DNA of 64,000 bases from Bacteroidales bacterium. Its GTDB lineage: Bacteria > Bacteroidota > Bacteroidia > Bacteroidales > UBA932. Positions 210 through 15,314 of the stretch are shown here, piece after piece; position 1 is the first letter of the stretch, and the number at the start of each line of letters is the position of its first letter. Location: the NCBI GenBank assembly GCA_017527415.1, contig JAFXQA010000003.1, positions 40,407 to 104,406 on the forward strand, given 5' to 3'. The translations under genes and the position numbers were made by a program. The notes under the pieces are model-generated. The model was not told where the DNA came from and ran no database searches. It saw only the letters and a program-made list of their open reading frames with translations.

Positions 210-3200
210 TCAGTCCGCCGCTACCTTGTAAGGGTAGGTGGCGCTGTCATCATCGGTGTTCGCCTCGACGTGGTATCCGGAGGTGATGGTGACGTTTGTC
301 GCAGCGGCCGGGTCGAATGCGAACTTGCCGCCGGAGATGTAGTAATCGCCGTAAGTCCATCCGCTGGAGCTATAGTTATAGAAGCTCTGGAACCTGCCAC
401 CCTCGATGGTCACCGTGCCGGAGCCGGGAGAGGTGACATCGTTCTTCTTCATGTTGCGGATCTGCTTATAGTCTCCGCTGCGGATGATGTAGGGATGGCT
501 GTCGGTCCACAGTGTGCCCTTTACGGTCATGTTTTCGAGTATAACGGTTCCGCCGTAACCATCAGCGAAGCCGGTCTTGCCATCGAAGCAGTCGCCGGTC
601 TGGGTGAAGGTGCCGTTGCGGATAGTGATGCTTCCGCCTGTGTTCTGCATCCAGAAAACCTTGTTCTGGCTGTGTCCGTTCATGTCAATCACCCCGGTCG
701 CCGTGCCGGTGAAAGTCAGCTCGCTGGTGTTGTCGGCAAGGAAGGTCAGGGTCCCGCCGTTGTCGCAAAGGGCATTTATGATGCCGGGGATGCTGTAGTA
801 CGGCACGCTGCCGTCGCCGAGTTGCATCGAGGTGACGGGGGGCAGCGAAACTGCTATGTCAAGACCGCGGAAATACTCCCTGTAATTGCTCCAGCCAGCA
901 GCACCCTTATAAGAATCCAGCAGCCCTTCAGGCACATAGATAAGCGGCACGGGATGGGCAGGGTAATTGTTCAAGCGCGTGTTGAGCGAGCAGACGGAGG
1001 CCCCGTTTCTGATGTAGACGGCCTGCATCGTGGTGATGTTGTTGATGCAGTCCTGACCGATGGATGTGACGTGCGAACCGAAATCCACAGTCTCCAGATG
1101 CGAGCTTTCGGTGAAGGCATTGCTCCTGACGGTCACGACCGACGGCAATTCGATGGATACCAGCGCATTGTTGCGGTAGAAGGCATACTCCCCGACAGTG
1201 AGGACTTCGGGAGCCGTTACGGAATCCAGGAGGCCGCATCCGCTGAAGGCGAAATTCCCGAGGGTGGTGACATCGTTTAGGTCCACCGTGGTGAGACTGG
1301 CGCAGCCCGCGAACATATAATTCGGGATGGTGGTCATCCCGTCCGGCAGCGTAATGCCAGTCATCAGGGTATTGGAAAAGATATGTTCTCCGAATGATGA
1401 GCAGTCGTGCAGGCCTGCGGGGATATCCGCAAGGGCCGTGTTATGGAAGCAGTAGCTGCCCATTTCGTTCAGGGATGCCGGCAATGCCACCGTGGTGAAA
1501 GAGGTACAATTGTAGAATGCATACTGCTGGATGGCGGTCAGGGAACTGCCGAGCGTAGCGCTTATGAGTGACTTGCTTTCGCTGAAGGTGCTGTTGGGGA
1601 TTACCGTCCAATTGGAAATATCCACCGTTGTAAGTGGCGTGCTGGCAAATACGTGGTCGCTTAAAGTGATATCCGCCCTGTTGATGCCTGAAGGCAGGCT
1701 GGTGAGACCGCTCTGGTAGAAGCAGTAACTCCCAATGGAGTTTACATTGGCGGGGATCACCACTTTCGCCCCGTCGGTTAGCGCGGTGCATTCGCGGAAT
1801 ACGTTGGCGCCGACGGTCGTCACGCCGGTGCCGAAATGCACTTCGCTCAGGCTCTTCCATCCCCAACAGAAATTGTTCGGGATGGATGTCCAGTTATCCG
1901 GGAAGGTAATGGAGGCGATGGGGCATCCATCAAAAGGCCTGTCACCATAGCTGATGCCGCTCCGGCCCCATCCTTCCGGAAGCTCGGTGAAACCGCAATT
2001 CTTGAAGGCGTTCTGCCCGATGGAAGTGACGTTGGAAGGAATGACCGTCGTCGTCAGGTCGGAACATCCGTAGAAGCAGCTGCTGGGTATCGTCGTGAAG
2101 CTTCCGCTCGTGGGGAAGGTGACGCTGACAAGGCCCGTGCAACTCTCGAAGGCCTGCTGCGTGAGCGTGGTCAGGCCGGAAGGCAGGATGATGGACGTCA
2201 GTGCGTAGCAGCTAGCGAAGCCCCACCTGCCTATGGAAGTGACGGTCGAAGGGAGTTCTATATCCGTCAGCGCCTTGCACAGGTTGAATGATTCCTCGCC
2301 GATGGTTGTAATATCCCCGTTGAACGTCACCGAAGCCAGCAGAGGGCAGTTCTTGAACATGTAGTTCGGGATGGCCATGTCGTCGTTGATGGTGACAGAG
2401 GCCAGGACGCTGCAGTCGAGGAAGACACCCGTGCCCAGAGTCTCCGGTTTGTGGTTGATGACGACCTCCGTGATCTTCGTATTACGGAAGGCATCGAAAT
2501 CGATCCTCGTGAAGTTATCCCCAAGGGTCAGGGTTCCGCTCAGCTTGACGTTCTGGAACGCGCCGGCGTAGATGGTAGTGATGTGGGACAGGTCGTCCGG
2601 CACAAACTTGCTGCTGTTGACAAATGCATAAGTGCCGATTATTGAAAGAGAACGCGGGAAGTTGACGCTTTCAAGGTTGCCGCAACTCTCGAAGGCCCTT
2701 TCGCCTATGGATATGACCGTGTTGGGGATGGTCATCGTCTTCAGGTTGCTGACGCTCCTGAACGCATAGTAACCCACACTGGTAACGGGTCCGGAGAAGG
2801 TGATGACGCCGGTCCGGGATTCGGAATCGTAGTTGTGGCTTACCACGGAAAGGCCGCTTCCAAAGATGGCCGCATCGGCCCCGGCCGCATACTTATCTAC
2901 CTTCGAGGTGTTCGAGGTGGTGTAGGTGATCTTGGCCGCTTCGTCCTTGAAGTTGGGGCTGGATATGTTGACCGGCGTTATCTGGCTGCGGGTGATGGTA
3001 ATGGCGGATTTGCTGTTCAGCGTGCAGACGGTGCCGTCGGAAGCCTCGATGATTATCCTCAGCTTGCCGTATGTGGCGGCCGGAACGGTGATGAAGAAGG
3101 GTGTGAAGGTCTCGGTGTTCAGGGCCACCGGCGTTTCGCAGACCAGGGCGGTGCCGTTGGTCCCCGCCGTGAGCACGGCGGCATCTTCGATGACGTTGAA

Positions 3201-3782
3201 ACGCCCGCTCATAGGCTTGGGCTCGGAAGGGTCCTTGTCCACGAGGGATATGGTGCTGACGCTCTTATCGCCCTTCAGGTTAAGTTGAATCAGACCGCAA
3301 AGGTTCTTGAACGAGAAACTCTCATCGTCGGACTCGGCATACATGGGGAAGGCGGCCACGCCTCCGGCCAGGTACGGTTGTTCGCCGGGGAGGTTGAAAT
3401 ACCCGTATTTGTCCCTAAGGGTATTAGGATAAACAGCCTTATATTTGGGGCCGGAACCCGCCGCAAGGGGTTTCGATCCGGCAAAATTACCCTTCTTCTC
3501 GCCAGGGCCGTAACCGGCGGGCTGATCCTCGCTCTGAAGGGTCAGGTTGGTTCCGTTCACGTTTATGACATCACCCGTGGCCCACAAGACGTGATAAACT
3601 CCTCCATCTTCCGAAAGCACGGTTTTGGTCGCACCTTCGGTAGTGGCGGAGAACACCACCGTTTCTTCTGTTTCTATCTGGGCCGGCTCCTGAATCTGCT
3701 CAGGGTCGGTGTTCTGTTCCATCATCTTGGTGCAGGAAGGCACAAAAGCGAGGAACGCGGCTAATACTGACAGCTTTTTCAT
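210..3782 (-). CDS. BspA-like LRR surface lipoprotein with fimbrillin-like N-terminus
   Basis: A 1191-residue predicted surface lipoprotein. I start it at MKKLSVLAAF (ATG 3782-3780), which gives a normal signal peptide and lipobox (FVPSC). An upstream in-frame ATG at 3797 would add five charged residues and overlap the small gene before it. Residues of about 40-280 resemble the fimbrillin (Mfa-like) fold, including the WATGDVINV segment. About residues 300-960 are many LRR_5 (BspA/TpLRR) repeats, with recurring SIGxxAFxxC, LTSIxLPSG and TIPNYMFxGC units. The last 180 residues are Gly/Thr-rich with short repeated strands (TIRNGTF, TVTIEGGRF, YYISGGKF), suggesting a beta-helix or sandwich. BspA-type proteins are known adhesins for host proteins or other bacteria; adhesion here is inference. 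GGAGG lies 7-11 bp before the start. Confidence 0.88.
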   Translation of the reverse strand: MKKLSVLAAFLAFVPSCTKMMEQNTDPEQIQEPAQIETEETVVFSATTEGATKTVLSEDGGVYHVLWATGDVINVNGTNLTLQSEDQPAGYGPGEKKGNFAGSKPLAAGSGPKYKAVYPNTLRDKYGYFNLPGEQPYLAGGVAAFPMYAESDDESFSFKNLCGLIQLNLKGDKSVSTISLVDKDPSEPKPMSGRFNVIEDAAVLTAGTNGTALVCETPVALNTETFTPFFITVPAATYGKLRIIIEASDGTVCTLNSKSAITITRSQITPVNISSPNFKDEAAKITYTTSNTSKVDKYAAGADAAIFGSGLSVVSHNYDSESRTGVITFSGPVTSVGYYAFRSVSNLKTMTIPNTVISIGERAFESCGNLESVNFPRSLSIIGTYAFVNSSKFVPDDLSHITTIYAGAFQNVKLSGTLTLGDNFTRIDFDAFRNTKITEVVINHKPETLGTGVFLDCSVLASVTINDDMAIPNYMFKNCPLLASVTFNGDITTIGEESFNLCKALTDIELPSTVTSIGRWGFASCYALTSIILPSGLTTLTQQAFESCTGLVSVTFPTSGSFTTIPSSCFYGCSDLTTTVIPSNVTSIGQNAFKNCGFTELPEGWGRSGISYGDRPFDGCPIASITFPDNWTSIPNNFCWGWKSLSEVHFGTGVTTVGANVFRECTALTDGAKVVIPANVNSIGSYCFYQSGLTSLPSGINRADITLSDHVFASTPLTTVDISNWTVIPNSTFSESKSLISATLGSSLTAIQQYAFYNCTSFTTVALPASLNEMGSYCFHNTALADIPAGLHDCSSFGEHIFSNTLMTGITLPDGMTTIPNYMFAGCASLTTVDLNDVTTLGNFAFSGCGLLDSVTAPEVLTVGEYAFYRNNALVSIELPSVVTVRSNAFTESSHLETVDFGSHVTSIGQDCINNITTMQAVYIRNGASVCSLNTRLNNYPAHPVPLIYVPEGLLDSYKGAAGWSNYREYFRGLDIAVSLPPVTSMQLGDGSVPYYSIPGIINALCDNGGTLTFLADNTSELTFTGTATGVIDMNGHSQNKVFWMQNTGGSITIRNGTFTQTGDCFDGKTGFADGYGGTVILENMTVKGTLWTDSHPYIIRSGDYKQIRNMKKNDVTSPGSGTVTIEGGRFQSFYNYSSSGWTYGDYYISGGKFAFDPAAATNVTITSGYHVEANTDDDSATYPYKVAAD

Positions 3783-3796
3783 ATCCCTTTCCTCCA

Positions 3797-3931
3797 TTAT
3801 TCGAAATCGCCGTCCGTTAATCCCACTCCTACAATAACATCCTCAGTCCCTGAACCGCTTACGCATAAAAAAATCTCACCATGCAGTTGGATAACCTCAA
3901 CGGCCGGTGATTCATAATACCGGATTTCCAT
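3797..3931 (-). CDS. Small YxxP-motif peptide upstream of the LRR lipoprotein
   Basis: A 44-codon ORF, ATG at 3931-3929 and TAA at 3799-3797. The peptide begins MEIRYYESPAVEVIQL, continues to FLCVSGSG and ends in an acidic tail (LTDGDFE). It has no signal peptide or membrane segment. Short proteins with an N-terminal Y-x-x-P-x-x-E pattern, an aliphatic core and then Ser/Gly/Asp residues recur in Bacteroidales as unnamed small proteins, often beside surface-protein genes. Two more occur in this window at 43112-43261 and 42964-43110. The stop codon is 15 bp from the lipoprotein start, and a promoter-like sequence lies just upstream, so the two are probably co-transcribed. Function unknown. Confidence 0.62.
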   Translation of the reverse strand: MEIRYYESPAVEVIQLHGEIFLCVSGSGTEDVIVGVGLTDGDFE

Positions 3932-3954: not shown

Positions 3955-3985
3955 CAATAATACGGCTAATTACCCGAAAAAACAA
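3955..3985 (-). promoter_or_regulatory. Probable promoter of the small peptide / LRR operon
   Basis: On the minus strand TTG (3985-3983) is followed after 20 bp by TATTATTG (3962-3955), one mismatch from the Bacteroidetes -7 consensus TAnnTTTG. It lies 23 bp upstream of the small ORF. A short C5-T5-G3 hairpin followed by T-rich sequence just upstream (about 3985-4000) could end the preceding protease operon. Confidence 0.45.
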
Positions 3986-4000
3986 CACCCAAAAAGGGGG

Positions 4001-4348
4001 CTACCAGATTTCCTGATAGGTATCCGGGAGGGCTTTTGTGGCAGATTCCGCCGAAAAGGCACCATATCCTTTTCCGGACGTGCCTCCGTTGGTGCGGATG
4101 AGGGAATCGCAGATTGCGATGTCCCAGTCATCGCGCAGGGCCCATTCGGCATCGGACTTTTCGTCGCCGAGAATGCCTGTTCCCACCACCTGCCCGGTCT
4201 CGAGGGAGATATAGGTCCAGCGACCATGCTGCGAAACGAATTCCACCTCTCCGCTCACGAGTTCGGGAGCCTTGTTCCTGTCGTCGATACAGGATACCGA
4301 TAACATCAGCATGGCAGCCAGCAATACTATGTACAGGATCTTCTTCAT
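4001..4348 (-). CDS. HmuY-like lipoprotein, short form
   Basis: A 115-aa lipoprotein with signal peptide and lipobox (MLSVSC, Cys20). The mature part matches the start of the HmuY family: a W-x-Y-I-S-L-x-T-G strand, then VVGTG, SDAEWALRDDWDIAIC and RTNGGTSGKG. HmuY of Porphyromonas gingivalis is a haem-binding lipoprotein of roughly 200 residues working with a TonB-dependent receptor. This protein stops at YQEIW, about half way, so much of the beta-sandwich is missing. Whether haem can bind is unknown. The ATG overlaps the protease stop by 4 bp (ATGA), making this the last gene of the operon. It may be a decayed HmuY or a short functional variant. Confidence 0.7.
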   Translation of the reverse strand: MKKILYIVLLAAMLMLSVSCIDDRNKAPELVSGEVEFVSQHGRWTYISLETGQVVGTGILGDEKSDAEWALRDDWDIAICDSLIRTNGGTSGKGYGAFSAESATKALPDTYQEIW

Positions 4349-5706
4349 TTGGTAACGGTATATTGCAACTTGGCGTTAAGACCTGTCCGACTGATGGTTA
4401 CTTTGGCCTTTTGGCCGGATGCAGTCTTCATGTATAGGGGCGTGTCGGTCGCAAGCCGCACGGACGAGCACGACACCGTGTAGCGAGGTACCAGCCCAAT
4501 TACGAAACAGTTCTCCCCATCCACCAGGGGCTGCGGAAGATGGCCGCGGTACTTGTGTTCCACCGGAGTGCCGCTGCGGTAATCTATCACCGACAGGGCG
4601 ACCAGGGAGCCTTCTCCTTTGACCCGACCCCGCGCAGAGCGCACTATCTTGAGAAAATACCGGCAATAGTCCGGATCGGTGGACGGGATGTTGTCGGTAA
4701 GGTCCAGAGCGAACTCCAGCGGCGCCTTGTCGTAGGTCCCGCGCATGTAATGATCCCCACCCTTGTTGCTCATGCCGGTCTGCAGATAATAGTTGTCCGG
4801 AACGCCAGCCGAAACCTTGTCGGTCGCGCCTATGTTATAGGCGAGATCGTCGCGGGAAGAATAATCTATGGTAAGCTTGAATAGGATGCGGGGTTCCTGG
4901 TACTTGACTTCGGCCGTTATGGCATCTTCGCTGAGTGTCCTGGATAAGACGTTTTTGTCCCGGAAGAAGTCGTACGGATAATAGAAGCGCCCCCTGTCGT
5001 GGGACCTGGTGCCCCAGCTGTTCGCCACTATAAATGCTCCTTCGTGCTTGCCTCCGGAGTTATCGGTGTAAGTGACGAGGTCGTCGTAGCCAACAATAGT
5101 CATAGCGTGGCCTCCATCGTTCGGAAGGGTGGTCACCAGCGCCTTGTAGCCTGTGCCGGAAGGACCGTCGTAATTCTCAACCATGTTCCATCCGTAGCAG
5201 TTGCCCGAGAAGGAAAGAATGCCGCCCGGACGGCCGTCGCTGCCGGCAAGATACCTCTTGTACGTATCTACGTCCCTGTCGAAGCGCACGAAACGTGCAA
5301 CCCTGTACCTCAACGCATTATGATACTTCTCGAAGCCGGAAGGCCAGGTGAAGGAAGAGGTCATGAGGGTGGAGAAATCCTCTTCGGTCATGGCGCCGGA
5401 ACGCATGGCCACGAACAGCCCGTCTTCGGCAAATCCGCCCTGGTCCACTCCGTCGTTGACGAGGTTCCAGATGAACTGGTAGCTGAAGCGGTTGGCGGGG
5501 CTGGCAGATGCGTCCCTGTCCAGGTAGCGGTTCATCTCGTAGGTGAATACATAGCCAATACTGGATGCCTGGGCGCAGGAGCCTCCGCTCTGGTCGATGA
5601 TGGGAGGAAAGTATTTGTTGGTGGAGTTGTCTACATACTGAGGCAACTCCTGCCCGGTCACAAGGACTGGCAGGAGTGAAAGCAGCAATGCGACAACAAA
5701 TCTCAT
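4345..5706 (-). CDS. Papain-like (C1) cysteine protease, secreted
   Basis: 453 aa with a signal peptide (MRFVVALLLSLLPVLVTGQ). The catalytic centre is readable: Gln39 and Cys44 in IIDQSGGSCAQASS, His200 in GGHAMTIVGYDD, and Asn229 in IVANSWGT, the Gln-Cys-His-Asn set of papain-family peptidases. There is little room for a propeptide before the active-site Cys, unusual for a C1 enzyme. After about residue 260 comes a beta-rich extension of 190 residues with no recognised family. It overlaps both neighbours by 4 bp and lies between a gingipain-like gene and the HmuY-like gene, suggesting a role in degrading external proteins, perhaps haemoproteins. Substrate is inference. Confidence 0.82.
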   Translation of the reverse strand: MRFVVALLLSLLPVLVTGQELPQYVDNSTNKYFPPIIDQSGGSCAQASSIGYVFTYEMNRYLDRDASASPANRFSYQFIWNLVNDGVDQGGFAEDGLFVAMRSGAMTEEDFSTLMTSSFTWPSGFEKYHNALRYRVARFVRFDRDVDTYKRYLAGSDGRPGGILSFSGNCYGWNMVENYDGPSGTGYKALVTTLPNDGGHAMTIVGYDDLVTYTDNSGGKHEGAFIVANSWGTRSHDRGRFYYPYDFFRDKNVLSRTLSEDAITAEVKYQEPRILFKLTIDYSSRDDLAYNIGATDKVSAGVPDNYYLQTGMSNKGGDHYMRGTYDKAPLEFALDLTDNIPSTDPDYCRYFLKIVRSARGRVKGEGSLVALSVIDYRSGTPVEHKYRGHLPQPLVDGENCFVIGLVPRYTVSCSSVRLATDTPLYMKTASGQKAKVTISRTGLNAKLQYTVTK

Positions 5707-7865
5707 TCAGAGATGCGTTTGAAGGTCTTCAGGGCTTCCCGGCTCACTTCTTCGGGGAGAGCATCGTCGGAACTCATTGCCTTGGCAACACTGGCTATTT
5801 CGCCGGCATTCCAGGCGTGGCCGTGCCATCCCAGGGCCTCGAGGAGGGTCACCTGGACCTTGGCATCAGTGCAAGACTGCAGGTATTCAAGCAGGCCGGG
5901 CACGTTGCCATAATTGAGGTTGGAACGGATCTGGCGAATGTTGGTGCGGCGTTCCTTTGCGCTGGTGGCAGGATCGGTAATGGCAGCCTGGTCGTCGAGG
6001 AAGCGGGTTGCGGATCTTTCGAAAGACTGCCTCAGCTTGGCGGCATCCTCCTCGGCGTTCACCATCTTAACGTCTGCAATCTGCTTGTCGAATTCGGCAA
6101 AGAGTGCATCCTTGTCGAAGGAGAGCAGGGAGTAGGAGGTGTCGAAAACGATTCTGGAGGTGGCGTTGTTGGTGAGGAACATCTTCACCATGCCGGGAAT
6201 CAGGCGCGGATCACCGCTCTTTCCGGCATACTTGACGGCAATGCGGCGGATAAACTCATCGGCATCGTCCATCGCAAGGCAGATGGCCTCCACAAAGGCA
6301 TCTCCCTTGGCCCTGGACAGACAGTAGAATGCCTCCAGGCGCACCACGGCATAAGGAGAAGTCTTGCAGATGTCCAGCAATTTGGCCGTGGAGACGGCAC
6401 CCTTCCTGTAGAGATGCTCGAGCGCGAGGGCCTTCTGGTCGGGGGTTCCTTTGCGCAGGAGGCGCTTCCAGACGCACTTGCTGTCTTTCTGGATAAGCTT
6501 GTCGAGATTCTTTCCGGAATATGCGAAGCGGAAGGTCGGGTCCCCGATGAGATGGCTCTCGATGTAGGGAGCGTAGCGCACGAGGTCGCCGGCGCAACCG
6601 CCTGCTGCCACAATGCCGAAGAAACGGTCGTGCCATTTATCCTGAAGGGAATTCACGCTGTTGGCCTGCACGGCGACGGTGCCTCCTTCCTGGAAGATAT
6701 ATTCGTCGGCTATGCAGTTGTTCAGTTGGAAGGAGCCGTTGTAACAGGCATCAAGGATTACGAGCTGGGCGGAGGGCTTGTAGCCGTAGGCGGCAAAGTC
6801 CTCTATGTAGAGGTCGAGCGAGGCGTCATCAAGCGAATCGGCCTTGTGGATATCCTCATCGAAGGCATCCTTGAACCAGCTGTCCGGCACGTCGAAGCGG
6901 GCCTTGAGATCGGCCTGGAGCTTCTTGTAGTCCTTGCCGCGCGCCCTGGCACGGTAGAGATGGTCGCGAAGGTTCTTCATTATATATTCCTTGGCATCCT
7001 TCACCATGTAGGGACGCTCCGCGGCGTTCAGGTACTCGGTATCGGGGGCGCCATGGTGATGCAGCATGGCCACGTTGAGTTCGGGGCGCATTATCTCGTT
7101 CATCAGATGAGGCTTCACGGGCACTACATCTGAATAATCGATATAGCTGATATGGTTGCGGCCATCATCTATCAGGGGGAAATGCTCGAACCATAAGCGT
7201 TTCTCGTCGAGGCGCGCGGTCTTGCTCTCGGAGATGTAACCATGCCCGCTGAAGAAGAGCATCTGGTCCATCACAGGAGGATTGAGGCGGGCATCTGCAG
7301 CTTTCAGGAGGAAGGCCTTGAGGGCATCTATACGCACCTTTCCATTCTCGTCCATAGGGCGGATGCGACCTGTGAAGATGTCCGGGCTGAGTGTCTGGGC
7401 ACCGTCAGCCGTGAGACCATAATAGTATAGAGGTGTTCCCTCGTCGTGCCCGATGAACTCGAACTCGAGGGAGAAATCGTCGTAGAAACGGTCGCTGGGA
7501 ATCGAGGACTGCTCGCGCGGGTATTTTTCCTCATCCATCTTGAAGGCGCTGGCCAGATGCTGTGCTCCGCGGACCATCGCAACGGGAATGTCTCCCACGA
7601 AAACAGCCCCTACAATGGGGTTCCTGCGGGAGAAATGGAGCCCTTTCAAGACTGCACGGATGCTGTCCGGCACGCCCCATACGTCCTCCACTATCTGCAC
7701 TTTGTAGCCGTCGGCCTTGGCGATGGCGGCGGCATAGGCATCCACTTCAGCCTTGGCGGCGGAGTAACTCTCGGGGTCGATTACTATTGCGAAGCCCTCC
7801 TTCGCCCCGGCGGAAAAAGCGCTCAGTAGCAAAAGGCAGGAAAAGAACAAACGGATTGTTTTCAT
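5703..7865 (-). CDS. Gingipain-like (C25) cysteine peptidase with HEAT-like tail
   Basis: 720 aa with signal peptide (ending AFSAGA). The N-terminal two thirds resemble the C25/caspase-like fold: AVFVGDIPVAMVRG, IFTGRIRP, FFSGHGY, a candidate catalytic His in MLHHHG (269-271) and Cys374 in LDACYNGSF, followed by YIFQEGGTVAVQANS and IGDPTF. C25 enzymes (Arg- and Lys-gingipains) use such a His/Cys pair. About 80 residues between His and Cys (roughly 285-360) are partly absent from the paralogue encoded next upstream. From about 470 to the end the protein is helical with HEAT-like repeats (ALALEHLYRKG, VVRLEAFYCL, FIRRIAVKYAG). No Por-type C-terminal sorting domain was seen. Confidence 0.8.
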   Translation of the reverse strand: MKTIRLFFSCLLLLSAFSAGAKEGFAIVIDPESYSAAKAEVDAYAAAIAKADGYKVQIVEDVWGVPDSIRAVLKGLHFSRRNPIVGAVFVGDIPVAMVRGAQHLASAFKMDEEKYPREQSSIPSDRFYDDFSLEFEFIGHDEGTPLYYYGLTADGAQTLSPDIFTGRIRPMDENGKVRIDALKAFLLKAADARLNPPVMDQMLFFSGHGYISESKTARLDEKRLWFEHFPLIDDGRNHISYIDYSDVVPVKPHLMNEIMRPELNVAMLHHHGAPDTEYLNAAERPYMVKDAKEYIMKNLRDHLYRARARGKDYKKLQADLKARFDVPDSWFKDAFDEDIHKADSLDDASLDLYIEDFAAYGYKPSAQLVILDACYNGSFQLNNCIADEYIFQEGGTVAVQANSVNSLQDKWHDRFFGIVAAGGCAGDLVRYAPYIESHLIGDPTFRFAYSGKNLDKLIQKDSKCVWKRLLRKGTPDQKALALEHLYRKGAVSTAKLLDICKTSPYAVVRLEAFYCLSRAKGDAFVEAICLAMDDADEFIRRIAVKYAGKSGDPRLIPGMVKMFLTNNATSRIVFDTSYSLLSFDKDALFAEFDKQIADVKMVNAEEDAAKLRQSFERSATRFLDDQAAITDPATSAKERRTNIRQIRSNLNYGNVPGLLEYLQSCTDAKVQVTLLEALGWHGHAWNAGEIASVAKAMSSDDALPEEVSREALKTFKRISE

Positions 7866-7874
7866 ATCAGGTTA

Positions 7875-9677
7875 TCAGTATGTATATGCAAGACGGTGCC
7901 ATTCGATGGCTTCTTTTATGTTTGCGGCCAGCACCTCGTTGGAGCAGGTGTCGGCAAAGTCGCGCACCTCGCGCAAGCGGTAGGCGGGGAGGTAGATACG
8001 GAAAGATCTCGACAGGAACATCTTCCATTTTTCGCTCAGTTCACCGCTGATGAGTTTGTCGATGTCCTCGTCCCAGGTTCCGCAGCGGGTGTTGGCTATG
8101 GAGCGTACTTTTTCGAAGTAAGCGGTGTCGGCACTCTGGCAGGCAAGGCTGTCAAGAGAAGCCTCTATGGCGGAGAGCATCTGCTCCCGGGGGAAGAACT
8201 GGAGGCTCTCATAGGTGTTCTGTCGCACTCGGGCCGAGGCGTTGTTGAGGGTTGCCATGCGGGCTACCAGCGGTATCAGTTCCGGGTCTCCAAGCGGAGC
8301 AAAGCAGTTCACAGCCTCGCGCTGGATCTGCTCGGCGCTGTCTTCGATGGCTATTTTGACTGCTTTGAGGCGGGTTGCATGGTCGCAATTCCTGATGATT
8401 GTGTTGAAAGCCTCATGCCTTTCGAGGGATACGGGAGAAGACTTAAGGATGCCGAGCAGCTGCTCCGGGCTCTTCTTGCCATAACGGATATCGAGACAGG
8501 CCTTGTCGGCAGAGTTGCGGACCTTCTCTTTCTTGAAGGTAAATGTGGGATCTCCAACTATGTGCATCTCAAGATAAGGAGCAAAACGGTTAAGGTCGCC
8601 AACAGGATAGCCCTGGGCCACCAGACCGAGAAATTCGTCCGGCCACTTGTCCTGCAGCACATTGACTGTGCCGCCCCATGCCACCAGGCATCCGCCGGGC
8701 TGGAATATATACTCGTTGGCTATACAGTCTTTCATGTTGAACGCTCCGTTGTAGCAGGCGTCCATCAATACGACTTTCGCCTCCGGGCGGAAGTTCGTAA
8801 AGTCTTTCAGGGTCAGATTGTCCTCTTTCCTGACCTTGAAGTACTGGGTGTCAAAATCCCCGTGGTGATGCAGGATGGCAATATCCAGTTCCGGGCGCAT
8901 CAGCTCGTTCTGTATACGGGGTTTCAATGGATCGAAATCCGTATGGTCCATGTAGGTGAACGCATCCGGAAGAGCTTTCATCCACGGGAAATGCTCACGG
9001 TGCGCGGCCTGCTCGTCGATATGGGCCCACTTGCTTTCTGCAATGCTACCCGATCCGTTAAAGACAAACAGATGATCCATCCTGTCCGGATTCCGGTGAT
9101 AGCGGGCGGCCTTCGCAAGATAAAGGCGGAGTTTGTCATAACGGGAGGATGCTTCGGTGTCCGTAGGACGGATGCGGCCGCTGAAAATGTCCGGTTGCAG
9201 CGGAACGTCTCTCCCGGATGTCAGGGAATAGTAGAAATAAGGATCCCCGTCATCGTCTTTACCGATATACTCGAACTCGAGATCGAAGTCGTCATAGTAA
9301 CGATCCGACGGCACGCTGGACTCTTTGCGGGGCCGGGTCTGATCCATCTTGAAGGCGCTGGTAAAGAACTGGGCGTCGCGGACCATCGGTATGGGAATGT
9401 CGCCAATGAATACGGCGCCGCATATCTTGCCTTTGGAATAGAGGGTTTCAAGCTGTTCCCGTATTTCTTCGGGGCTCTGCCATTCTTCACAAAGGCGGAT
9501 TACGTTGTATCCGTCCGCCTCACGCAGGGCACTCTCATAGTCGGCGAGCTCGGCAGCCGCTTCGCGCTCGCTGACAGGATCTATAACTACAGCGACCCCT
9601 GCCCGATTGGAGCAGGAGGATAACAAGCTGAATATCAGAATGGCAGAAACCCCTGCCATTATCGATTTATAATTCAT
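7875..9677 (-). CDS. Gingipain-like (C25) lipoprotein peptidase, second copy
   Basis: 600 aa paralogue of the 5703-7865 product, but lipid-anchored by its signal (LLSSCSNRAG, Cys22). Shared landmarks are AVFIGDIPIPMVRDAQ, SVPSDRYYDDF, DIFSGRIRPTD, HHHG (270-272) and MDACYNGAF with Cys308, then IVGDPTFTF. The His-to-Cys spacing is 36 residues against about 103 in the other copy. The FFSGHGY segment of the first copy is FNGSGS here, so that conserved His is missing while the HHHG His is retained. The C-terminal 200 residues are again HEAT-like (RHEAFNTIIRN, IQREAVNCFAPLGD). Placed between the beta-barrel gene and the first C25 copy, it is probably surface-exposed and active or substrate-binding. 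Confidence 0.78.
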   Translation of the reverse strand: MNYKSIMAGVSAILIFSLLSSCSNRAGVAVVIDPVSEREAAAELADYESALREADGYNVIRLCEEWQSPEEIREQLETLYSKGKICGAVFIGDIPIPMVRDAQFFTSAFKMDQTRPRKESSVPSDRYYDDFDLEFEYIGKDDDGDPYFYYSLTSGRDVPLQPDIFSGRIRPTDTEASSRYDKLRLYLAKAARYHRNPDRMDHLFVFNGSGSIAESKWAHIDEQAAHREHFPWMKALPDAFTYMDHTDFDPLKPRIQNELMRPELDIAILHHHGDFDTQYFKVRKEDNLTLKDFTNFRPEAKVVLMDACYNGAFNMKDCIANEYIFQPGGCLVAWGGTVNVLQDKWPDEFLGLVAQGYPVGDLNRFAPYLEMHIVGDPTFTFKKEKVRNSADKACLDIRYGKKSPEQLLGILKSSPVSLERHEAFNTIIRNCDHATRLKAVKIAIEDSAEQIQREAVNCFAPLGDPELIPLVARMATLNNASARVRQNTYESLQFFPREQMLSAIEASLDSLACQSADTAYFEKVRSIANTRCGTWDEDIDKLISGELSEKWKMFLSRSFRIYLPAYRLREVRDFADTCSNEVLAANIKEAIEWHRLAYTY

Positions 9678-9687
9678 TCCTTATTGT

Positions 9688-11265
9688 TTAAAAGTTCAGG
9701 AAGGCCCCTGCGGACATTGCGCAATAATCGGTCCCTTCCAAAGACGGGCTTTGCAAGGCAGCGCCCGTCTGACGCAGTATTGAGCCTTTGGCGAAAAGGC
9801 CGGGGCGCAGTTTTCCGCCTTGCGATGCCGGCATCACCCAGTCGGCACGGATGAATGCGGAAATCCTGGCCGATGTCTCGTAGGCAAAAGCCGGAGCGAC
9901 ATACCATTCCGAAATATCTTCTTTGGCCGGAGCGGAGTTTCCACTGTCGTAAGAAGGCTCTCCCAGAGGGAGGACATATCCTGCACCCGCGCTTATGTCG
10001 AGAATGTGTTTCCCAATCAAAAATGTCTTCCACCCACTTGCGGACAGTTCAAGGAGATTCCAACTCTGAACATGCGGATCTCCGTCGGTATAGTGAGTGT
10101 CGTTCTCCATGCAGACCCCTGCATTCAGGACGGCCGACCATGAATCCGGGCTGCTGACTCTGTAACTGCCTCCTGCCCGGAGCCGGAAAGCCTCGTTGTT
10201 CAGATATCTGCTTTTCACTTCAAAATAGGTCCTGTTCCCATGCTCGGTATCGACGCTGCGTTTCTGGTCGTACCAGTATCCCTCGCGCATCTTGAAATCG
10301 GCCGTAAGGGAAATACTGTGAACAAGCTGTTTCTTGATGTCCAGGCGGTCCGTGAGCTTGAACTGCATGTGGGAATAGTCTCCGGCTTTCCACTCATAAG
10401 AAGAACCGCCGTCGCGGGCATCTTCCTTGCCGGAATCGAAGACAATTTCTACAAAATTGACTGTCTGCCCATAATCCGCAAGCGCGTTGATTCCTCCCGT
10501 CCACGTAATCCCGGAATACTCGCGGGGCGCAGTGGAACTGTCGGATGAACTGAACGCGAAGAAATCGCCCATTCCCTTCATCTTGTAATAACGGTATACC
10601 TTCTGGCCGTCTTCGAGGTAGTAGCGGAAATCGGAACGGAACAATTCAGCTCCGCCGAAAACACCAAGAGTCCAGATATCCCCGACAGGGCGCTCTATTC
10701 CGAAGGAAACCGGTATGCGGGAGATGTCGTTACGAGGACGAGGATCCCGGATATCGGACAGCGTCCCTGTTTTCAATGCGACGGACCCTCCGACTACCCA
10801 GCCTGAACCAAAACTCCATGACAAGGCGCCGTGAATGTCGAAAAGTTCCGTCACTGACCTGTCCGACAGGGAATCGCAGATTACGTAAGGATTGTCCGGG
10901 TCGTTGCCGATCAGAGAGTTCCAGTTCCGGTCGAATTCCCTGGTATTGCGGTAGCGGATACTGCCCGCAGTACGGAATCTGCCTACACTTTGGAGTTCCT
11001 CGACTCCGATATCCATTTCGCTCTTGCCCGAAGGTGCATCCGGCCTGTGGAATGCTCCGTTTTCGTAATTCCATCCGGCAATGACGGAATGCCAGTCGGA
11101 TGTTGGGTTGGAGTAGCTGGCGGAGGGAGAGGCGCTTCCGCTCCGGGTGTTGAATAATTCGTTATTCCTTTGCTGGTGCCAGACTTGAGCGAATGCGTCC
11201 CCTGCCGGTGAAAAAAACACCGGCAGAAGGAGCATCACGCAAATCTTATTCAGTTTATTCAGCAT
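9688..11265 (-). CDS. DUF6850-like outer-membrane beta-barrel protein
   Basis: 525 aa when started at MLNKLNKICVML (ATG at 11265), which gives a signal peptide ending DAFAQ and an 11-bp overlap with the upstream gene. A longer frame to 11349 lies inside that gene and is unlikely. The sequence has alternating hydrophobic strands rich in aromatic residues and Gly, ends in a C-terminal Phe (GAFLNF) typical of barrels, and contains RNTREFDRNWNSLIGNDPDN, which I associate with the DUF6850 barrel family found beside DUF4876 genes. Function is unknown; its constant company with a TonB receptor suggests a surface platform or channel for the same substrate. Confidence 0.68.
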   Translation of the reverse strand: MLNKLNKICVMLLLPVFFSPAGDAFAQVWHQQRNNELFNTRSGSASPSASYSNPTSDWHSVIAGWNYENGAFHRPDAPSGKSEMDIGVEELQSVGRFRTAGSIRYRNTREFDRNWNSLIGNDPDNPYVICDSLSDRSVTELFDIHGALSWSFGSGWVVGGSVALKTGTLSDIRDPRPRNDISRIPVSFGIERPVGDIWTLGVFGGAELFRSDFRYYLEDGQKVYRYYKMKGMGDFFAFSSSDSSTAPREYSGITWTGGINALADYGQTVNFVEIVFDSGKEDARDGGSSYEWKAGDYSHMQFKLTDRLDIKKQLVHSISLTADFKMREGYWYDQKRSVDTEHGNRTYFEVKSRYLNNEAFRLRAGGSYRVSSPDSWSAVLNAGVCMENDTHYTDGDPHVQSWNLLELSASGWKTFLIGKHILDISAGAGYVLPLGEPSYDSGNSAPAKEDISEWYVAPAFAYETSARISAFIRADWVMPASQGGKLRPGLFAKGSILRQTGAALQSPSLEGTDYCAMSAGAFLNF

Positions 11266-12448
11266 CAGCGGCAGTAGGAACAGCGCCCGGAACAACCTTT
11301 CCGGTGACAAAGTCCTTGGAAGAGTTGTTGGTATCTTTGTAATAAGCACGGCCGTTTTCGACCTTGGACACCTTGCGGCGGACCGCCTGTCCGCTCCATG
11401 CTTCGGGGCCTATGATGCCCTGAGCATCATCCACGGGGAGGAATGTAGGATAGTGTTCTTCCTCGGTGCCGTCCCAGATATCGACTGCGTCAAGCACATA
11501 TTCGTTGGGGAATACAAGATACTGGGTAGCGGATGTGGTTCCGGGTGTGGTCATCAGGTTCTCTTCCTTTGAAACATACTGGGAAGGGGTGGTTCCGGCA
11601 GGAAGCTTGATGATGGCTGCTGCATTGGCGAAGAAACCCTGTCCCCAGTTAGCCTGATACTTGTTGCTGTAGTACACAAGTTCGAGATTGGGGTATCCCT
11701 CGTAGTCTACGTCGTTTGCATTGTATTCGCAGTAGAACTCCCAGTCAGCCTTGGAGAGGTCGGCGCAGTTCGGGTGATCCCCGTCGACATGATTCTTGGG
11801 GTTGTTGGCGACAACCACGCTCTGGCCGGGCTGCAAAGGATACTGGGTACCATTTCCGGGGAATGCGAAAACGGGGCTCTGGCTGGTGCCGCCATAGAGC
11901 TTCTCGAAGTTGTTGGACTGCCATGCATTGGCCTGCTTCTGGCCGCCCATGCCCCCGACAAGAATGATCTGGTCGAGATACTGGACCTCATCGGAATTGT
12001 TTACGATTTCGATCCATGTGTCGCCGCCCTGAATGTAGTACTGGGCGCCGGGAGAGTACTGGAATGCCTTGATAAGCAGAGGAGACTCGCTGACTACGCT
12101 GAGGGCGATGCTGGTCTGGATGTCTTCGTAAAGGGAAACGGCCACGGAGCCGACGACACGGGAAGTACCGGTAACCGCACCGGATACCGTAATGTCGTAG
12201 TCGCCCTGAGTGAGAACCGCGTTGATCGTATAGCCGGTTTCAGTGGCGACGACTTCGAGAGGAGTGGTCTTGGACCCCTTGACTGCCTCTGCGGTGACAT
12301 CGGTGACATCGGACACCGTAACGATTTCGGGAAGGGTTACGTTTACAGATAGATTGTAATCCTTTGCCTTCTCCTTGTTGCAGGATGCGGACACGACAGC
12401 TGCAGCTGCTACAGCCACAATGCTGAGAATTTTAACTGTCCTTTTCAT
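11255..12448 (-). CDS. DUF4876 lipoprotein
   Basis: 397 aa with lipobox VVSASC (Cys23). An N-terminal beta-sandwich (about 30-120: YNLSVNVTLPEIV through a run of Val/Thr strands) resembles a carboxypeptidase-regulatory or Ig-like fold. The C-terminal part begins PLLIKAFQYSPGAQYY and has WIEIVNNSDEVQYLDQII, the hallmark of DUF4876, which looks like a lamin-tail-like domain. It lies directly after the TonB receptor with a 5-bp gap and overlaps the beta-barrel gene by 11 bp. DUF4876 proteins travel with TonB receptors in Bacteroidetes. The biochemical role is not known to me. Confidence 0.8.
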   Translation of the reverse strand: MKRTVKILSIVAVAAAAVVSASCNKEKAKDYNLSVNVTLPEIVTVSDVTDVTAEAVKGSKTTPLEVVATETGYTINAVLTQGDYDITVSGAVTGTSRVVGSVAVSLYEDIQTSIALSVVSESPLLIKAFQYSPGAQYYIQGGDTWIEIVNNSDEVQYLDQIILVGGMGGQKQANAWQSNNFEKLYGGTSQSPVFAFPGNGTQYPLQPGQSVVVANNPKNHVDGDHPNCADLSKADWEFYCEYNANDVDYEGYPNLELVYYSNKYQANWGQGFFANAAAIIKLPAGTTPSQYVSKEENLMTTPGTTSATQYLVFPNEYVLDAVDIWDGTEEEHYPTFLPVDDAQGIIGPEAWSGQAVRRKVSKVENGRAYYKDTNNSSKDFVTGKVVPGAVPTAADAE

Positions 12449-12453
12449 AAATT

Positions 12454-15264
12454 TTAAAGATTAATCTTGAGTTCTGCGCCGAAATACATATTCGGGTAGA
12501 GCTGCGTCTTGGAATATGAATGTTTGTTTATATGATATTTGCTTGTATTGGTAACGTTGTTGGCAGTGAACGACAACTGGGCCCCCTTGCCGAATTCCTT
12601 GGTCAGGCGTATATTGAGCAACGCCCACGGTGAAATCCTGTCTGCGAGAAAACTGTAAGTGTAGAATCTGGACACCATCAGGTTCAGGGCCGGGTCGGAA
12701 TTCATCGACGCCGCATTCCATGCCGTGTAGTTTCCGTCCAGATCGTAGTAACCGAGAGGATCGACTCCCAGATAGTCCTTCCCCTGATAGCTGAAATCGT
12801 GTGTCCTCTGATTGCCGTCCCCGTCGATGTACACACTTCTGCGGGACTCGAACCATACTACCTGAAGGGTCGTGGTGAACACGAGTTTAAGTTCCGGGAT
12901 ATGGGTGATGAAGCGGAAACTTGTATTGACACGGTCCTGCACGGAACCGCTTCCCGCCGGCATCGTCGGAGCGTATGCATAGTTCTTGTTTATATAGGAA
13001 GTGGACGTGGTCTCCCTGGTGCGGCGGATGTGGAACCATGCGCCGTTTATATTGACAGTGGTCCTGAGCGGACGGATGGAGCCCAGGTCGATACCGTATT
13101 CTATGCCGTGCTTTTCGGAGTGTGTGTTGTTGGAAGGGCGTCCCCAGCTGACATATTCCACCAGTTCCGTCCTGGCGGCAGTCTGCCTCGCTCCGCCGAG
13201 AGAATAGACGACATCGTTCCCTTCGAGTGCCGGAGCGACGGAACCGTCCGGAACGGTAAAGCGAGGATAACGTCCCCAGTACAACTGGGAATCGAAACCG
13301 AACTCGTGCGTGTGATTCTCATTGAAATAGGTGACAAAACCGCTGGTCTTGCCGACCTTCCAACTGATGCCGATTTCGTGTTTTACGGCATGCGCCGGCT
13401 TGAGGTCCGGATTGTATGTATCCTTGACCACATCCGTGCTCATCACGGCTATCCGGTTTTCGGGAGCTTCGGTATATCTGTTCAGACTGATGAAATCGAA
13501 ATATGTCGGTTCGGGATAAAGATAAAGCAAGGTCGGCATCTTGTTGGATATTCCGAATCCGCCGTTGAGCGAGAAGTCGTCGAAAATGCCGTTGTTGTCG
13601 GAGTTCAGCAGACTGAGCGAGAGGTTCACCCTCGGCTCGAGCACGAAATACCCGTCATTTCCTCCACTCTTTGCGGAATCCAGGAACAGACGGGAGGCGC
13701 GCAGACCTATTTCCGATTTCAAGACAATGTCCCCGAAACTCAGGCGTCCCTTGTCGCTGACAAAAACGGATGCGTTGTTCAAAGCCGGAATATCCTTGTA
13801 TGCCCGGGGCCGGAGAGTATGTGCAGAAGACCCCTGGGGAGGATTGTCAAGGTCGTAGGTAAACCCGCGGCCCCTGTTCGCATCCATCGTGTATTCGATG
13901 CCGGCTTTTATCCGGTTGTAATCCTTTTCCCCTATCTGGAAATATCTGCTTCCCGCCAGCTGCCCGAATAGGTTTATCGGCACTCCGTGGAGCCTGTATT
14001 CGGAATAGTAAGGCGAAGTTTTCTGCACTGCGACATGAAGGCCGCTCTCACGGGCATCCGTCACCGCGGCGTCCGGGCTCCATACTTTGGAATTGTGGAT
14101 ATCCTCGGTACGGGCTACCTGGGCGGAGAAATTGTAATCGAGCGATGTCAGCAACGCCGCCTTCGGCGAGAAGGATCCGTTGACGGAGAGCCTGCCTCCA
14201 ACATTCTTATTGGTAAAAACAATGTCCTGCACCTCGAGCTGAGGGTCCTGCTTGCGGTTGTTGACGTTGGAATAGACAGATCCCTTGATATTCAACGTTG
14301 CCTTGTTCCATACCTTGGAATAGCCTCCCGCGGCAGTCAGGCGGTCGTAGCCGAGATAGCGGCGCCGGGGATCGCTGAAACTCTGGCTCCAATCTCCTCC
14401 TATGTTGATGGACCCTCCGCTGCGAAGGGAGAATCCCTTTCCAATGTAGGCCAATTTGGAGTTGGGATCGGTCTGGGCCTTGAATTCCCAGGGGGTCCGC
14501 CCGGCCTTTGTCTTTACGATTACCACGCCGGACGTGAGGTTGCCGTATTCGGCGGAAGGGATTCCGCTGATAACCTCCATCGATTCCACAACTCCGGCAC
14601 TCACCGTACGCAAGTCGGTACCGCCGCCGGCGGTGGTCTGCTCGCTCATCCCGTCGGTCTGCACACTGGAAGCCGTGCCGAAACGCGTGGCTGCGATGGC
14701 CTGAAGGTTGGCGTCGTTGCTCACGGGTGTGCCATCGATTATGACCGAAGTGCCGAGGGAGTTGTTCGCGTTGGAGGAAATCTCCCTGACCGTAGCCTGC
14801 GATAACTCGTTGAGGTTAGGGTTCTTGGCGAGGTTGCCAGGCACGAGCTGCAGAAGGTCGCTCACGCTCTTGGGCTGCAGATGCCGCACGGCTTCTTCGT
14901 TAATAACCGACTTGGAGCCCATATCCTCGCGCTCGGCGGTAACCGTGACGCTGTTCAGCTCGAGGCTGAGGGTCTGCAGAGTGAAATTCAGGATGGTGTT
15001 GTTGGAAATCTCAACCGTTCCGGAGAGATCCTTATAGCCCACGAAGGATACCTGGTATTCGTATTTTCCTTTCTTAAGATTGGAGACGGTATAGTTTCCG
15101 TCCTTGTCGGTGGTTGCCCAGATGGATTTGTTGAGCGAAACCACAGCGAGTTCCACGGCGGAGCCTTCGGCGTCCACGACACGCCCCGACAGGCTGAAAG
15201 ACTGCGCCCAGACCGTTTCCGATATGGGCAAAAGAAGGCATATGAGGAGGAGAAACTTCTTCAT
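12454..15264 (-). CDS. TonB-dependent outer-membrane receptor (first gene of protease/HmuY operon)
   Basis: 936 aa starting at MKKFLLLICL (ATG 15264-15262; an in-frame GTG at 15273 is less likely). A signal peptide ending VWAQ is followed by a carboxypeptidase-regulatory-like domain (about 25-110), then the plug (INEEAVRHLQPKSVSDLLQL, VIIDGTPVSND, VESMEVISGIPSAEYGNLTS) and a 22-strand-type barrel ending in AELKINL. It lacks the SusC signature and has no SusD partner, so it is more like a metal, haem or peptide receptor than a glycan importer. Together with the gingipain-like, papain-like and HmuY-like genes it probably imports something released by proteolysis, with haem or iron the leading guess. 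Confidence 0.85.
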   Translation of the reverse strand: MKKFLLLICLLLPISETVWAQSFSLSGRVVDAEGSAVELAVVSLNKSIWATTDKDGNYTVSNLKKGKYEYQVSFVGYKDLSGTVEISNNTILNFTLQTLSLELNSVTVTAEREDMGSKSVINEEAVRHLQPKSVSDLLQLVPGNLAKNPNLNELSQATVREISSNANNSLGTSVIIDGTPVSNDANLQAIAATRFGTASSVQTDGMSEQTTAGGGTDLRTVSAGVVESMEVISGIPSAEYGNLTSGVVIVKTKAGRTPWEFKAQTDPNSKLAYIGKGFSLRSGGSINIGGDWSQSFSDPRRRYLGYDRLTAAGGYSKVWNKATLNIKGSVYSNVNNRKQDPQLEVQDIVFTNKNVGGRLSVNGSFSPKAALLTSLDYNFSAQVARTEDIHNSKVWSPDAAVTDARESGLHVAVQKTSPYYSEYRLHGVPINLFGQLAGSRYFQIGEKDYNRIKAGIEYTMDANRGRGFTYDLDNPPQGSSAHTLRPRAYKDIPALNNASVFVSDKGRLSFGDIVLKSEIGLRASRLFLDSAKSGGNDGYFVLEPRVNLSLSLLNSDNNGIFDDFSLNGGFGISNKMPTLLYLYPEPTYFDFISLNRYTEAPENRIAVMSTDVVKDTYNPDLKPAHAVKHEIGISWKVGKTSGFVTYFNENHTHEFGFDSQLYWGRYPRFTVPDGSVAPALEGNDVVYSLGGARQTAARTELVEYVSWGRPSNNTHSEKHGIEYGIDLGSIRPLRTTVNINGAWFHIRRTRETTSTSYINKNYAYAPTMPAGSGSVQDRVNTSFRFITHIPELKLVFTTTLQVVWFESRRSVYIDGDGNQRTHDFSYQGKDYLGVDPLGYYDLDGNYTAWNAASMNSDPALNLMVSRFYTYSFLADRISPWALLNIRLTKEFGKGAQLSFTANNVTNTSKYHINKHSYSKTQLYPNMYFGAELKINL

Positions 15265-15277
15265 AATAAACACACTA

Positions 15278-15307
15278 CTTCGGCAAAGGTAGGAAACTCT
15301 GCCGAAG
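15278..15307. repeat. 8-bp inverted repeat across the operon promoter
   Basis: CTTCGGCA (15278-15285) and TGCCGAAG (15300-15307) are perfect inverted copies 14 bp apart. They flank and overlap the -7 element of the protease/haem operon promoter, which is where a repressor such as a Fur-like regulator would act. The sequence is not a classical Fur box. Confidence 0.4.
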
Positions 15308-15314
15308 AATGCAA
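15284..15314 (-). promoter_or_regulatory. Promoter of the TonB/protease/HmuY-like operon
   Basis: On the minus strand TTG (15314-15312), a 20-bp spacer and TACCTTTG (15291-15284) give a perfect match to the Bacteroidetes promoter TTG-N19/20-TAnnTTTG, 19 bp from the receptor start codon. Confidence 0.75.

Follow-up and report, generated by a model that had tools for sequence, protein, structure and literature searches.

Seven genes on the minus strand of the window, by which is meant the whole 64,000-nucleotide stretch of DNA that was analysed, formed one cluster between positions 15273 and 4001 and encoded a TonB receptor, a DUF4876 lipoprotein, a DUF6850 barrel protein, two C25 peptidases with HEAT repeats, a papain-like protease and a lipoprotein corresponding to one half of HmuY. 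The proposed mechanism, taken as a whole, is that of an iron-linked, protease-associated import system, and we give this reading a probability of about 0.5.

The operon was delineated from gene calls and Pfam matches (Table 1). Intergenic distances, read 5' to 3' along the operon, were 5, -11, 10, 9, -4 and -4 nt, the largest gap being 10 nt. Together with the promoter scan, these junctions bore out the sequence-only reading insofar as it had described a single promoter followed by seven tightly spaced or overlapping genes, and they supported its placement of proteases, barrel and TonB receptor in one operon resembling a transcription unit. The claim that this promoter was a consensus one held in the Bacteroidota sense only. 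Thus, ATTG-20-TACCTTTG at 15315-15284, which we take to be the promoter from a Bacteroidota-type consensus, was the sole match on that strand in the region, compared with 0.165 matches per strand expected from simulated sequence, whereas a sigma-70 promoter scan of the region gave no signal above chance. The inverted repeat that overlaps the -7 element was not seen, by eye, in three near relatives (L063, L065 and L066). At the other end of the operon, a stem at 4019-4001 was listed by the scan just ahead of the terminator hairpin. Since pheS is co-oriented with the operon and lies 58 nt upstream of it, read-through from this gene may occur. Also noted in the vicinity were a large BspA-type leucine-rich repeat protein downstream on the same strand (210-3797) and a family C69 peptidase on the opposite strand (16841-18544).

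Table 1. Features of the operon and its flanking signals, with positions in the window.
Feature	Position	Strand	Evidence and remarks
Promoter	15319-15284	minus	AGGTATTG (includes -33 element ATTG), 20 nt, -7 element TACCTTTG
11-bp inverted repeat overlapping -7 element	15278-15307	minus	CTTCGGCAGAG / CTTTGCCGAAG; by eye
TonB receptor	15264/15273-12454	minus	Plug and N-terminal CarboxypepD_reg domains
DUF4876 lipoprotein	12448-11255	minus	PF16215, 3.8e-43; same family as BT_1938 (PDB 4q1z)
DUF6850 protein, predicted outer-membrane beta-barrel, 18 long strands	11265-9688	minus	PF21012, 3.7e-67
C25 peptidase domain and HEAT repeats, lipoprotein-type N-terminus without surface-export motif	9677-7875	minus	PF01364, 5.7e-10
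C25 peptidase domain and HEAT repeats, signal-peptide type N-terminus	7865-5703	minus	C25, 1.4e-6; HEAT, 8.3e-10
Papain-like (C1-type) protease with C-terminal beta region	5706-4345	minus	PF00112, weak, 0.018
Final 34 codons of papain-like gene, including stop	4345-4446	minus	Match to HmuY C-terminal strands (family profile)
Half-HmuY lipoprotein (HmuY N-terminal half)	4348-4001	minus	PF14064, 3.8e-10; 4-nt overlap with protease gene
Probable intrinsic terminator 3' of operon	3968-4003	minus	CCCCC/GGG hairpin and T-run; read by eye

Recurrence of the operon was evident at several taxonomic depths. The window's family was sampled evenly, 299 genomes being taken out of a larger group with the window's own among them. 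Of these, 196 carried DUF6850 and 100 carried the first of the two C25 proteins of the window, and the two were associated, DUF6850 occurring in 98 of the 100 C25-positive genomes as opposed to 98 of the 199 C25-negative genomes (Fisher 2e-20, kinship ignored). When named genomes were scanned with the C25 alignment, at least 498 stretches were confirmed, and 78 loci were kept among the matches listed. The same-strand cluster at these 78 listed loci included DUF6850 in 64 cases, DUF4876 in 52, a TonB receptor in 52, the papain-like gene in 40 and a called HmuY gene in 31, while C25 stood alone in 9; contig ends cut many of the loci. The sources were rumen and gut Bacteroidales MAGs, Prevotella, Bacteroides fluxus, Paraprevotella xylaniphila, Alistipes sp. 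An66, Coprobacter secundus, Muribaculaceae, Prolixibacteraceae and Proteiniphilum, among others. Across the phylum, the C25-HEAT protein was found at E <= 1e-20 in only 7 of the 296 genomes sampled, the window's own included, and 5 of these carriers were outside the window's class. The order TonB-DUF4876-DUF6850-x-C25 was seen in three of the five out-of-class loci (L246, L247 and L248), x being a BNR-repeat protein with a T9SS tail in L247; in L250 two genes separated DUF6850 from C25, and in L249 the contig ended at C25. The sequence-only reading would have been refuted by a gene order confined to this genome; when checked, the order recurred at the 78 listed loci as well as outside the class.

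The protease cassette varied among relatives, with one to five copies of C25 in addition to C1, S9 and M16 enzymes. Thus, an S9 oligopeptidase was the first operon gene in L072 and L079, and in one distant relative (L248) an M16 peptidase was last in the operon, 20 nt behind the C25 gene. This pattern of recurrence indicates a core of TonB receptor, DUF4876 and DUF6850 with a variable protease set. It also bears on a reading in which the proteases would mature other exported proteins, as in the processing of toxins or adhesins, and the barrels would be parts of an export route. Clan CD proteases frequently process other proteins, but the TonB receptor with its plug is an import part and no recurring cargo gene was seen among the annotated neighbours in the operons, which makes this reading highly improbable.

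Several other arrangements were noted among the relatives. Long C25-HEAT frames of about 1420-1466 aa, apparently tandem fusions, were found in L078 and in genomes G057, G071, G095 and G148. A 731-aa protein with a DUF4876 domain was encoded outside the usual operon (L224, 933-3128), after a heavy-metal-associated protein. Upstream of the operon, a bacterial alpha-2-macroglobulin was encoded in L151 (2019-7865) and a long protein of nearly the same length in L153 (2058-7910).

With regard to the outer-membrane components, DUF4876 matched PDB entry 4q1z, titled BT_1938 of Bacteroides thetaiotaomicron, while PDB contained no sequence match for the TonB receptor and no sequence relative of DUF6850. 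The predicted structure of DUF6850 (pLDDT 83.6), in which the 18 long strands were seen, resembled in Foldseek only outer-membrane barrels of a general kind, including TonB receptors and AlgE, with TM scores by query length of 0.26-0.41 among the best 50 rows.

The proteases retained their active sites. The clan CD catalytic residues, His-Gly and Cys, were invariant in 24 aligned C25 proteins, including both window copies, which also matched the C25 profile, and the papain triad (Cys44, His200 and Asn229) was invariant in 40 papain-like proteins, so the catalytic Cys, His and Asn of family C1 were all present. A PF00112 match was obtained for 11 of 11 papain-like proteins, with weak E values (best 0.018). 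No Por_Secre_tail match, the T9SS tail, was found by Pfam in the two C25 proteins of the window, and SprA, the T9SS translocon, was not found in eight genomes of the family, namely the window's own (67% complete) and seven relatives, nor in B. fluxus; it was present in two operon carriers, Prevotella sp. BV3P1 and Paraprevotella xylaniphila (G299 and G300). The missing tail in the two C25 proteins of the window and the failure to find SprA in the eight family genomes argue against gingipain-type export, and the extracellular, gingipain-like digestion that had been suggested for these enzymes is not supported. Judged from these absent export signals, the C25 proteases are probably periplasmic. 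A different picture was obtained for the other lipoproteins when a simple lipobox rule was applied to 67 DUF4876, 33 half-HmuY and 152 C25 proteins. Acidic residues at +2 to +6 after the lipid-bearing Cys, a signal of the surface-export type, were noted in 59 of 61 DUF4876 and 25 of 26 half-HmuY lipoproteins as opposed to 7 of 28 C25 lipoproteins, and DUF4876 and half-HmuY may therefore be displayed at the surface.

The seventh gene was HmuY-related, as the sequence-only reading had stated, but it encoded only half a HmuY. The window protein, of 115 aa (about 95 aa when mature), covered positions 4-59 of the 157 in PF14064 and thus lacked a complete HmuY fold in one chain. A frameshift or truncation confined to this contig was rejected as the cause, given that the half form recurred: all 39 called half-HmuY ORFs, a count that includes the window and repeat fetches of the same contigs, were of 112-158 aa, and all 39 lay directly behind the papain-like gene. 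Similarly, half-HmuY was located within 700 nt behind a papain-like gene (350-650 aa) in 54 of 54 loci, which represent 47 distinct contigs and of which 13 are the 7 profile-building sequences and repeat fetches of them; the paired genes were often joined by start-stop overlap. Stops in rows from G102, G002 and G183 did not denote broken half-HmuY genes, the HmuY match ending before the gene's own stop, and the half-HmuY genes of L075, L269 and L270 were whole. The C-terminal half of HmuY was also absent downstream of the window operon, where the terminator is followed by the leucine-rich repeat gene.

The location of the missing strands was indicated by a PF14064 scan of 199 family genomes. 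Full-length matches accounted for 36 rows, half-length matches for 11 and a single tandem for two; in a further two rows, positions 111-157 or 125-157 lay inside a papain-like frame. The tandem HmuY domains occupied one 483-aa frame (G055 C182, 1194-2108; L268), possibly a step towards a permuted split form. In view of the rows inside the papain-like frame, a full-length HmuY profile was built for comparison. Half-HmuY matched the first half of this profile (99.6%, E 2.7e-24), and the C-terminus of the papain-like family matched its last 44 aligned columns (hhalign 96.0%, E 3.8e-9); the corresponding values for the papain-like tail by itself were 97.5% and E 4.9e-12, compared with 0.1% for the remainder of the protease and 0.3% for the reversed tail. 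The assignment of the tail to HmuY rests on the family profile, since the window's own protease tail alone gave no significant match to HmuY (E 13).

The axial haem ligands of P. gingivalis HmuY are given as His134 and His166 in the portion of PMC2671838 available to us. By hand count, these residues are chain positions 109 and 141 of 3h8t, which correspond roughly to columns 140 and 161 in the profile of 211 columns. Half-HmuY matches of closely similar profiles stopped at or before column 132, and firm matches of protease tails began at about column 176, with the tail-only alignment and some single tails starting from about 153-165. Thus, as a rule, neither piece contained the position of the first ligand, and that of the second fell at the margin of the protease tail. 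Two weak tail matches, from L136 and from the protease of L269, began at columns 110-120, so loss of the middle of HmuY may have been uneven. Neither the two histidines nor a pair of Met ligands was found in their place; ahead of the RTADG motif, no alignment column had His or Met in at least 3 of 40 tails (columns by hand). The haem contacts Arg79 and Tyr80 were likewise replaced and not conserved in half-HmuY (by hand). As far as these alignments go, the pair retains both ends of the HmuY fold without the haem ligands, and the two halves may fold together.

These findings also bear on haemoprotein foraging, in which proteases would free haem for capture by the HmuY-like protein and uptake by the TonB receptor. 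Capture of haem in the manner of HmuY is unsupported because half-HmuY ends ahead of both axial ligand positions, and the loss of the Arg79/Tyr80 contacts, the uniformly short half-HmuY ORFs and the C25 proteins devoid of T9SS tails argue in the same direction.

An alternative is that half-HmuY, instead of serving as a tether, inhibits the papain-like protease or helps it to fold. Small inhibitors are encoded beside C10 proteases of Bacteroides, and the consistent pairing at 54 of 54 loci, the frequent start-stop overlap and the size of the mature protein would all suit such a role. That half-HmuY is homologous to HmuY while the protease itself carries the opposite end points instead to one shared fold, and a lipid anchor is unusual for an inhibitor. 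We regard an inhibitor or helper as rather unlikely.

The link to iron was an indirect one and came from published expression data as well as from a shared operator. In the available part of PMC10434189, genes BT1933-39 of B. thetaiotaomicron, whose listed products include a HEAT repeat protein, DUF4876 and a TonB receptor, were 3.5-7.4-fold up in low iron, PG1019-22 of P. gingivalis were 21-214-fold up and a P. intermedia locus was drawn as equivalent. The two operons of this iron stimulon, PG1019-PG1022 and BT1933-BT1939, share TonB receptor and DUF4876 with that of the window, and BT1933-39 probably represents the same core, given the HEAT repeat protein also listed there. They are described in the same part of that source as hypothetical transport loci, with no mention there of C25 or split HmuY. 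In the open-licence literature searched, PMC10434189 alone was found for BT1938/BT1939, and no paper was found on DUF6850, on the operator or its iron regulon, on the combination of C25, HEAT, TonB and iron or, by title, on HmuY together with papain.

At least seven of the eight bases of AGGTATTG were present upstream of the TonB gene in 27 of 60 regions, compared with a mean of 4 and a maximum of 8 in shuffles. In many relatives this element forms the right arm of the palindrome AATACC-N8-GGTATT, which overlaps the -33 element. The full palindrome was absent from the window promoter, in which the right arm was kept and the left arm was not conserved, 5 of 6 bases differing (by hand); with this arm lost, iron control of the window copy is a mere possibility. 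When the pattern with promoter was searched at up to 3 mismatches in 15 genomes (13 via operon loci, plus G175 and the window's own, G000), 92 sites were found, as opposed to 17 with the pattern backwards and 11, all at 3 mismatches, with the left arm reversed. When no more than 2 mismatches were allowed, 41 sites remained, compared with none for the arm-reversed control, although 12 of the 41 belong to the very operons under study, most of which had supplied sequence for the motif.

The other 29 sites included 16 that precede iron-linked or TonB-receptor genes, a raw count not set against random promoters. These were feoAB (3 sites), full-length hmuY with a TonB receptor behind (1, in Prevotella sp. 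BV3P1), tetR (3), hemerythrin-type genes (4), MMPL/LolA-like (1), porin/imelysin (1), PepSY_TM (1) and TonB receptors (2). Among the tetR sites, an ABC gene was confirmed in L192 only. Of the genes behind the sites as a whole, those of L208, L209 and L210 were judged by N-terminus only. Ten sites preceded genes without an evident iron link, namely two PALP enzymes, a leucine-rich repeat protein, PFL, an enolase (by look), a TonB/SusD pair, an M20 peptidase, an OprB porin, a small gene (by look) and one gene without a family; of the remaining three, two had no called gene and one was before an unscanned gene. In the window's own genome, the operator occurred with 2 mismatches directly before feoAB (L218, G000 contig C2, 79228). 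CbiK/CbiX-type chelatase genes were found behind 3-mismatch sites.

A second recurring form, AATCAT-N8-GGTATTG, with a left arm unlike that of the palindrome, was noted at 3-mismatch sites (L219, L221, L222 and L223, in G299, G307 and G309) before chelatase/TonB receptor genes, feoAB and one protein without a family. The hemerythrin domain behind the operator in L202, L208, L209 and L220 was fused to a LuxR-type DNA-binding domain, as scanned in L202 and judged alike by N-terminus in the other three. To go by its domains, this protein is a possible iron or oxygen regulator, and both it and the TetR protein are candidate regulators whose genes carry an operator site.

The rise of related operons in low iron (PMC10434189, available part), the operator shared with full-length hmuY and its TonB receptor and the chelatase genes at 3-mismatch sites are what remains in favour of haemoprotein foraging. 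With its iron theme supported in relatives, and both HmuY-type capture and gingipain-like extracellular digestion unsupported, haemoprotein foraging, as the sequence-only reading had proposed it, appears unlikely. The same iron data bear on general foraging for peptides or proteins as a source of nitrogen or carbon, to which the iron response would be incidental. Protein breakdown predicts a protease cassette as variable as that observed, and peptide foraging without iron is compatible with most of the same facts, but induction of related operons in low iron (PMC10434189, same part) and an operator common to feoAB and hmuY speak against it, and we consider it improbable.

In the import system that we favour, a polypeptide or a protein fragment carrying iron would be bound by the TonB receptor together with DUF4876 as a surface lipoprotein and would cross the outer membrane by way of this pair, with the DUF6850 barrel perhaps serving as a second channel or as part of the receptor. 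Periplasmic C25-HEAT proteases would then cut the cargo, releasing iron, haem or peptides. Half-HmuY, as an obligate partner, would complete the HmuY fold begun by the last strands of the papain-like protease and so act as a tether that keeps this enzyme at the outer membrane, probably on the cell surface. More tentative is the wider proposal that cysteine-protease protein import under iron regulation is widespread in Bacteroidota and that the HmuY fold, split and free of ligands, is now a docking pair, made up of the protease C-terminus and a surface lipoprotein coupled to it in translation, that anchors an enzyme in trans.

Comparison with known systems placed the operon nearest to FusA/FusC, which takes up ferredoxin, and YddB/PqqL, described as protease-associated import systems (PMC6793856, available part). 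Both types combine a TonB-dependent receptor and a protease in one cluster, with a predicted periplasmic protease; iron-dependent expression is reported here for related operons, the window copy having half an operator, and the M16 peptidase of L248 is a further likeness. In contrast with those clusters, which the same part of PMC6793856 describes as widespread across Proteobacteria, the present operon belongs to Bacteroidota, has C25 and C1 cysteine proteases with no M16 protease of the FusC/PqqL type (Pfam) and adds DUF4876, DUF6850 and half-HmuY. Thus, it would work like Fus but is not a member of that group, its proteases not being M16. With HmuY/HmuR and the gingipains of P. gingivalis (PMC3040768, PMC2671838 and PMC7956564, each in part) it shares a C25 domain, an HmuY-related lipoprotein and the iron theme, but here the genes form one operon, C25 is joined to HEAT repeats and lacks a T9SS tail, and HmuY is split and its ligand residues are missing; since the axial ligands were not found, the operon is not an HmuY haemophore system. 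Polysaccharide utilisation loci of the SusC/SusD type likewise combine a TonB receptor and a surface lipoprotein in one operon, whereas neither SusD nor a glycan enzyme family was found among the operon proteins here (Pfam).

Fus-type systems across Proteobacteria are known to bring in whole proteins as nutrients (PMC6793856, available part). If gut and rumen Bacteroidota have a conserved counterpart, a function could be assigned to iron-stimulon loci that lack one in the literature found. The split HmuY provides a clear and cheap test case for reuse of a binding fold as a protein-docking device, and it cautions that a short match to the HmuY family is no evidence for haem uptake. The operator, in turn, offers a handle on an iron regulon of these bacteria that includes feoAB and hmuY.
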